This document shows positions 41,264-41,457 of a DNA stretch of 64,000 bases, piece by piece (position 1 is the first letter of the stretch; each line of letters begins with the position of its first letter). The stretch covers positions 866,501-930,500 of the forward strand of contig NZ_SDPV01000001.1 of assembly GCF_004135625.1 (NCBI RefSeq). Direction: 5' to 3'. The stretch comes from Pelagerythrobacter rhizovicinus. Lineage in GTDB: Bacteria > Pseudomonadota > Alphaproteobacteria > Sphingomonadales > Sphingomonadaceae. Under the pieces are notes generated by a model. The model saw nothing but the letters and a program-made list of their open reading frames with translations, searched no databases and was not told where the DNA came from. The position numbers and the translations under genes are program-made.

Positions 41264-41268
41264 CGAGC

Positions 41269-41422
41269 GAGTCCTTCCGGCAACACCCGCAGCATGTCGA
41301 GTCCATCTGAATTGTACAGACTCAACATCTTGTGGCGGACTCTTTTCGTTCCTCCGCAGGTTACCGGGCGTTAATCATACCGGGCGCAAATTCCTCGCTT
41401 GACGCGGAGTCCGCTTGGACTC
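41269..41422. promoter_or_regulatory. Cluster of six GANTC (CcrM) sites before ccrM
   Basis: GANTC sites start at 41269, 41299, 41319, 41338, 41407 and 41418, all in the 194-nt gap between rnhB and ccrM. Base composition predicts about one by rough estimate. The last two form a perfect dyad GAGTCC-N4-GGACTC (41407-41422). Several spacings are near whole helical turns (30, 20, 19, 11). In Caulobacter, GANTC sites in the ccrM leader mediate methylation feedback; the same is inferred here. Confidence 0.8.
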
Positions 41423-41426
41423 ACCC

Positions 41427-41435
41427 TGTGGATAA
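41427..41435 (-). promoter_or_regulatory. Exact DnaA box upstream of ccrM
   Basis: TGTGGATAA on the plus strand is the exact complement of the DnaA box TTATCCACA. It lies 4 nt after the GANTC dyad and 22 nt before the ccrM TTG start, so bound DnaA could affect transcription or the leader. Only one box was noticed, with no AT-rich unwinding region, so it is not an origin. Confidence 0.7.
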
Positions 41436-41457
41436 CTACGGAAACGGGGGATTTGCT

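Follow-up and report, generated by a model that had tools for sequence, protein, structure and literature searches.

The 194-nt gap between the ribonuclease HII gene rnhB and the adenine methyltransferase gene ccrM (positions 41264–41457 of the window, the 64,000-nt stretch of Pelagerythrobacter rhizovicinus DNA analysed here) carries six GANTC sites. From sequence comparison we read this gap, with a probability of roughly 0.6, as a methylation-reading autoregulatory promoter of ccrM made of two cooperating parts, a core promoter holding sites 5 and 6 and an upstream block holding sites 1–4. An earlier note on this DNA had described one array of six sites; they are indeed clustered and conserved, but they are not six equivalents, the core pair and the block being separate. 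The strongest single result is a helical register between these two parts.

Our first set comprises 110 loci with ccrM and its upstream DNA, 30 from coded genomes and 80 named loci. With 60 further listed places these give 170 leaders of the window's family, of which 167 are distinct; for the 80 named loci family membership was inferred from names, with genera including Altererythrobacter, Erythrobacter, Qipengyuania, Croceicoccus, Novosphingobium, Sphingopyxis, Sphingobium and Sphingomonas. The nearest named relative is Altererythrobacter sp. C41, whose CcrM is 96% identical. Forty leaders from other families of the same class, an uneven sample hand-picked among the better matches, were used for comparison.

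The distance between block and core was taken from site 3 to the TTGAC of the core with a position-weight anchor that accepted 134 of the 167 family leaders. It is 68–69 bp in 6 leaders, 78–81 bp in 111, 89–91 bp in 16 and 100 bp in one, with none lying between the four classes. The best-fitting period, determined from the 23 leaders outside the main class, is 10.5–10.75 bp. Among the 33 leaders not accepted, 26 stand at 67–71, 78–79, 87–90 or 99–100 bp, one is without TTGAC, and six would fall off-class (36, 45, 58, 121, 144 and 189 bp). A simpler first-pass anchor, for which 28 of the 167 leaders were dropped as poorly anchored, recovered the same classes with three of 139 outside them (121, 128 and 138 bp); in the outliers L140 and L157 the anchor is visibly misplaced. 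The classes require at least 11 changes on a ccrM tree (a quick FastTree of 110 rows, 98 of them labelled by the first-pass anchor), and counting well-supported branches only, the main class must still have changed at least five times. In most inspected leaders the GTTC at the block end keeps a constant distance from site 3, and it is the stretch between GTTC and the core that varies in length. From these whole-turn distances, the block appears to work through proteins that need to sit on the same face of the DNA duplex as the core. From start to start the six sites are spaced 30, 20, 19, 69 and 11 bp; the earlier note called 30, 20, 19 and 11 bp close to whole turns, but the regularity is clearest from block to core promoter and not inside the block.

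The six sites start at 41269, 41299, 41319, 41338, 41407 and 41418, exactly where the earlier note had placed them, and read GAGTC, GAGTC, GACTC, GACTC, GAGTC and GACTC. The expectation of about one site from base composition is likewise borne out: 20,000 dinucleotide shuffles of the gap gave a mean of 1.02 sites, with a probability of 1e-4 of six or more. From the frequency over the whole window, 120 sites per 64 kb, only 0.36 would be expected, and the next densest listed places outside the ccrM cluster hold three sites per 194 nt. The whole window is about threefold depleted in GANTC (120 against 333 expected from dinucleotide shuffles), so that the cluster in the ccrM leader stands out all the more. 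Chance or base composition is a negligible explanation: the GC content of the gap (0.56) is below that of the window (0.66) and would permit more GANTC, but the shuffles and the conservation in 167 family leaders refute it.

Conservation in relatives, a check set beforehand, was found as the earlier note expected. In 108 distinct rows of aligned leaders, sites 1–6 are kept in 102, 84, 94, 59, 56 and 85 rows, respectively, and at least four of the six are intact in 85. Family leaders contain on average 6.1 GANTC per 230 nt, versus 1.24 in shuffled sequences, and leaders of the other families 3.9 versus 0.99. GANTC-rich ccrM leaders are therefore general across families, and it is the arrangement that differs. 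Although rnhB lies more than 900 nt from ccrM in 29 of the 68 loci where the distance could be measured, the sites hold a near-constant distance from ccrM, which argues that the array belongs to ccrM and not to rnhB. These data support the view that the cluster is conserved regulatory DNA. One earlier claim did not survive: the ‘perfect dyad’ of the last two sites is present in the window (GAGTCC-GCTT-GGACTC) but is not kept in relatives, where 46 of 105 rows have a complementary central pair and the middle base of site 5 is G, C or A.

The core is predicted to be of the sigma70 type, with sites 5 and 6 placed between −35 and −10 at offsets 8 and 19 from TTGAC:

41399–41404, plus strand: predicted −35 element, TTGACG; its TTGAC is identical in the 110 aligned loci and present in 166 of 167 family leaders.
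41407–41411, plus strand: GANTC site 5, in the −35/−10 spacer; at offset 8–9 in 117 of 153 family cores.
41418–41422, minus strand: GANTC site 6, whose last base is the first of the predicted −10 and is followed by A; at offset 19 in 128 of 153 family cores.
41422–41427, plus strand: predicted −10 element, CACCCT (CAnnnT), after a 17-bp spacer, with a predicted start near 41434.

A core was counted where GANTC lies 7–10 or 17–22 bases past TTGAC, which is the case in 153 of the 167 family leaders and 27 of the 40 others. The other-family cores have GANTC at offset 8–9 in 16 of 27 and at exactly 19 in 22 of 27; the remaining second-GANTC offsets within 17–22 amount to four family cores and one other-family core. 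In 127 of the 128 family cores with a site at offset 19, and in 22 of 22 such cores of other families, the next base is A; in all 22 of the latter a T stands four bases past that A, giving CAnnnT. With loose gaps, the order TTGAC-GANTC-GANTC occurs in 108 of 167 family and 19 of 40 other leaders, versus 0.0 in shuffled ones. We read sites 5 and 6 as an ancestral pair within a core that recurs in other Alphaproteobacteria. The −10 and the start site are themselves deduced from these alignments, and CACCCT matches TATAAT poorly. The middle base of site 6 is C in 109 of 133 leaders. At site 5 it varies (G in 76, C in 41 and A in 9 of 126) with the GANTC frame kept, as would be expected if the methylation target itself were selected.

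The upstream block, in contrast to the core, appears to be confined to the window's family. It consists of the following elements:

41269–41352, plus strand: upstream block of about 85 bp, comprising sites 1–4 together with GCCACACC-like and TTTCGTTC-like stretches, as seen in the footprint of 110 leaders.
41269–41273, plus strand: GANTC site 1 (GAGTC), at 102 of 108 the best kept of the six; middle base G in 150 of 162.
41299–41303, plus strand: GANTC site 2 (GAGTC), intact in 84 of 108; middle base G in 121 of 126.
41319–41323, minus strand: GANTC site 3 (GACTC, or GAGTC on the minus strand), followed by AAYAT; intact in 94 of 108, middle base C in 137 of 143.
41338–41342, minus strand: GANTC site 4 (GACTC), optional; intact in 59 of 108, middle base C in 82 of 94.

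Sites were assigned with a template placing them 28–31, 47–51 and 66–71 bp from site 1, ranges inside which the spacings are partly set by the search. Within these limits sites 1 and 2 are 29 bp apart in 105 of 126 leaders and 30 bp in 16, and sites 1 and 3 are 49 bp apart in 78 of 143, 48 bp in 27 and 50 bp in 18. GAGTC followed 47–51 bases on by GACTC is found in 132 of the 167 family leaders, and a weight matrix for sites 3 and 4 passes its threshold in 135; both counts are 0 of 40 in the other families. The middle bases of all GANTC in the window are mixed (A 39, T 38, C 22 and G 21). The near-fixed middle bases of sites 1–4 thus suggest that something reads them as oriented GAGTC words, two of which face the gene and two of which face away. 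A pyrimidine precedes GAGTC at site 1 in 142 of 162 leaders, at site 2 in 112 of 126, on the minus strand at site 3 in 107 of 143 and at site 6 in 132 of 133, and at site 4 in 48 of 94.

As side observations, five Sphingopyxis leaders (L093, L099, L102, L105 and L108) carry extra GANTC sites at near-constant places close to −81 and −72, and several also at −152. In the window, TTGTG-N3-GACTC at the end of the block (41330–41342) echoes the 5′ half of the core, site 4 being at offset 8 from TTGTG as site 5 is from TTGAC; a second promoter, either duplicated or decayed, may be present here.

A sequence model of the block, built from 39 family leaders under strict filters through which weak distant relatives could escape, finds only the ccrM leader in the genome of P. 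rhizovicinus (150 of 483 first-look candidates scored). It matches there on both strands because the sites are inverted. Among 147 genomes of the order, 62 have matches and all of these belong to the window's family; 20 non-matching genomes were listed, two of the family and 18 not, and 65 further genomes do not match. One genome (G014) has a second, weak block match at C2:51177-51237 (E 0.0018), on a contig other than that of its ccrM. The corresponding core model detects ccrM in the same P. rhizovicinus genome with E 2.8e-6 and one partial place with E 0.84. In 13 family genomes it recovers the ccrM core with E <0.01 in 10, weakly in two (0.29 and 0.8) and misses it in one, with weaker second places in two of the 13 (E 0.0033 and 0.011). 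A search for TTGAC-N4-GANTC in the P. rhizovicinus genome gave six places, as did the reversed control; this pattern cannot match the ccrM core itself, where three bases separate the two elements.

The inverted sites could also be taken for a structured RNA leader in which GAGUC pairs with GACUC, an idea that is very improbable and that we rejected on folding and covariation tests. Sites 2 and 3 are able to pair, there is some folding stability (z = −1.34), and Watson–Crick pairs are slightly more frequent than in shuffles at −158/−136 (89 versus 83.8, P 0.004) and −154/−140 (47 versus 38.2, P 0.04), but relatedness alone can yield such an excess. Just five pairs are predicted; in none of them have both sides changed, and the covariation term is 0.03. 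At the variable pair −162/−132, A-C is as frequent as G-U (16 against 13), with complementary pairs no more numerous than in shuffles. Compensatory base changes were sought in the leader alignment and none was convincing. A search of Rfam over 40900–41800 returned one match, sX13, with 18.1 bits (gathering threshold 50) and outside the gap. Furthermore, the predicted start is downstream of the block, and the block-to-core distance follows helical turns, both of which speak against RNA.

Two further candidate elements lie in the leader, one between block and core and one downstream of the core:

41361–41374, plus strand: CtrA-like box, TTAC-N6-TTAA, degenerate in the window; GTTAACCAT in many relatives.
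41427–41435, minus strand: perfect DnaA box TTATCCACA, covering the predicted start; the only perfect one in the window.

In 72 of 167 leaders GTTAAC is found in the 80 bp ahead of the core (2.55 in shuffled ones), and the two-half CtrA consensus in 11 of 167 (0.4 shuffled). In 85 matches, GTTAAC stands 28–30 bp from TTGAC in 23, 39–41 bp in 35, 16 bp in 18 and elsewhere in nine; 58 of the 85 are therefore at one of two distances about one turn apart. The CtrA-like box obeys the helical rule less strictly than the block does. Perfect copies of TTATCCACA, which we take to be the DnaA consensus, are present in 74 of 167 family leaders versus 0.4 in shuffled ones, and in 3 of 40 others versus 0.0. 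In 50 leaders the box lies 28–29 bp past the first T of TTGAC, and the footprint of 110 leaders displays TGTGGATAA, a DnaA box, downstream of the core. Some Sphingomonas leaders (e.g. L080, L082 and L083) have TGTGGATAA near the place of site 2 instead; in L080, L082, L083 and L086 a DnaA-box-like TGTGGAT(AA) lies near the position at which other genomes carry GANTC site 2.

How might such a promoter work? At the core, opening of the promoter by sigma70 polymerase, with the help of GcrA, would depend on the methylation state of sites 5 and 6. The block upstream would serve as an enhancer or operator that reads methylation, and the proteins bound to it would have to share a side of the helix with the core. 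Passage of the replication fork would leave all sites hemi-methylated together, and their re-methylation by CcrM would change promoter activity. Methylation is very probably read at the array. That hemi-methylation opens and re-methylation closes the promoter is an evenly balanced proposition, and the reverse sign is possible because activity is lost at several Caulobacter promoters once their GANTC is altered (PMC3667746). The more graded switch envisaged in the earlier note is a guess.

For GcrA as the main reader the odds are about even. Its reported motif is YGAKTCK (PMC7987155), with which the YGAGTC orientation agrees over the first six letters, except at site 4. At ctrA P1, the GcrA footprint extends from −35 to −10 and depends on GANTC methylation (PMC3667746), and in Caulobacter the start sites that have GANTC in the −35/−10 interval constitute a timed class (PMC4287350). 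The P. rhizovicinus genome holds both ccrM and gcrA, the GcrA match being over the cut-off, as it is in 147 of 149 family genomes; the two genomes in which no GcrA match was found, G097 and G143, are in 660 and 320 contigs, respectively.

Several observations weigh against a GcrA-read promoter of this design. The block is single-copy, and more genes might carry it were GcrA its sole reader. The last letter of YGAKTCK is K in 87 of 162 leaders at site 1 and in 53 of 126 at site 2, with mostly C/T there, and site 4 has no preference for a preceding Y. Block letters conserved outside GANTC (GCCACACC and TTTCGTTC) are not known as read by GcrA. Sites 2 and 4 are missing from many Sphingomonas leaders, only 81 of 128 family cores retain the T of the −10, and the CtrA-like box is off the whole-turn rule in the 18 matches at 16 bp.

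Some of these points would suit another DNA-binding protein, be it MucR, CcrM itself or an unnamed factor, that owns the block and shields or reads its sites, with GcrA acting only at the core. A single-copy block fits a dedicated operator, and letters other than GANTC are conserved within it. Moreover, one MucR homologue is encoded in the P. rhizovicinus genome, and MucR keeps some Caulobacter GANTC sites hypomethylated by shielding them (PMC5172544), but no consensus is known for it according to the covered part of PMC7987155. We consider this alternative rather unlikely. In a related and equally tentative version, the block would be a dedicated methylation sensor, single-gene, family-restricted and helically phased, that registers the methylation of several sites together and passes this on to CcrM synthesis as feedback, with either CcrM itself or some protein other than GcrA as the reader. 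Still less probable is that the GANTC of the block belongs to a longer motif of an ordinary activator, with methylation incidental. The near-fixed middle base and some flanks of sites 1–4 would agree with this, as would flanking letters that outlast lost sites in some leaders. Yet the block places four CcrM targets ahead of ccrM itself, many leaders add GANTC at lineage-specific places, and site 5 keeps GANTC with a variable middle base. The methylation-reading promoter of two parts remains our preferred reading.

Methylation-sensitive promoters and CtrA-driven ccrM are already known. The ccrM promoter of Caulobacter has two GANTC sites with methylation feedback. Compared with the Caulobacter crescentus promoter, the one described here has an extra four-site block in helical register; this block is found in 0 of the 40 other-family leaders, among which the Caulobacter leader was not identified. 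In C. crescentus CtrA activates ccrM (PMC2877005, PMC3667746). Like the GcrA/CcrM sigma70 promoters of ctrA P1, mipZ and podJ, the ccrM leader has GANTC in or near the predicted −35/−10 and, except at site 4, largely the YGAKTC orientation, in a genome that encodes GcrA; unlike them, it has six sites in two parts, a predicted CAnnnT −10 and a DnaA box. Brilli et al. (PMC2877005) predicted that some alphaproteobacteria have DnaA motifs ahead of ccrM, and counted GANTC upstream of cell-cycle genes. In the portions of that paper covered, DnaA sites occur mainly where CtrA sites are missing, the GANTC counts are given without a conclusion, and no fixed architecture is described. Published GANTC counts for ctrA in the same order similarly report several sites ahead of a cell-cycle gene and, in the part of the source covered, no spacing, orientation or phase. 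MucR-shielded Caulobacter promoters (e.g. P169, with four GANTC) also hold several sites in one promoter (PMC5172544), but the functions shielded by MucR are reported there as generally not conserved, whereas the ccrM array is conserved. In the titles, abstracts and passages covered, we found no description of the four-site block, of its apparent restriction to one family and to ccrM, or of the helical register.

How CcrM production is restricted to a single moment of the cell cycle is a key question of cell-cycle control in Alphaproteobacteria. Sphingomonads are easy to grow, and a conserved promoter in which the core pair can be separated from a phased upstream array allows a direct test of whether the gene of a methylase reads the enzyme's marks, with what number of sites and through which protein. 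Furthermore, a core common to other families (TTGAC, GANTC at 8–9 and 19, CAnnnT) offers a fixed frame for how a GANTC that touches the −10 is read.

The genes on either side of the gap were named correctly in the earlier note, as judged by matches to domain and family models:

40676–41263, plus strand: rnhB, ribonuclease HII (the stretch tested; the open frame spans 40352–41263).
41458–42594, plus strand: ccrM, adenine methyltransferase, with a TTG start.

The rnhB product matches the RNase HII model over its cut-off. The ccrM product has N6_N4_Mtase and RAMA domains and matches the NCBIfam CcrM model over its full length with 608 bits, under the equivalog cut-off of 830 bits. Judged by reading frame and relatives, ccrM seems to start with the TTG at 41458. 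TTG is also the start codon in Altererythrobacter sp. C41 (L031), and ATG in most other compared relatives. A conserved small open frame within the gap was considered and rejected, its ATG at 41294 not being kept in relatives when compared by eye. Finally, between ccrM and the next gene (42624–42708), an inverted pair, CCCGCGAAGGCGGGGACC and GATCCCCGCCTTCGCAGGGA, lies between two flanking GAGTC sites and looks like a dispersed palindromic repeat.
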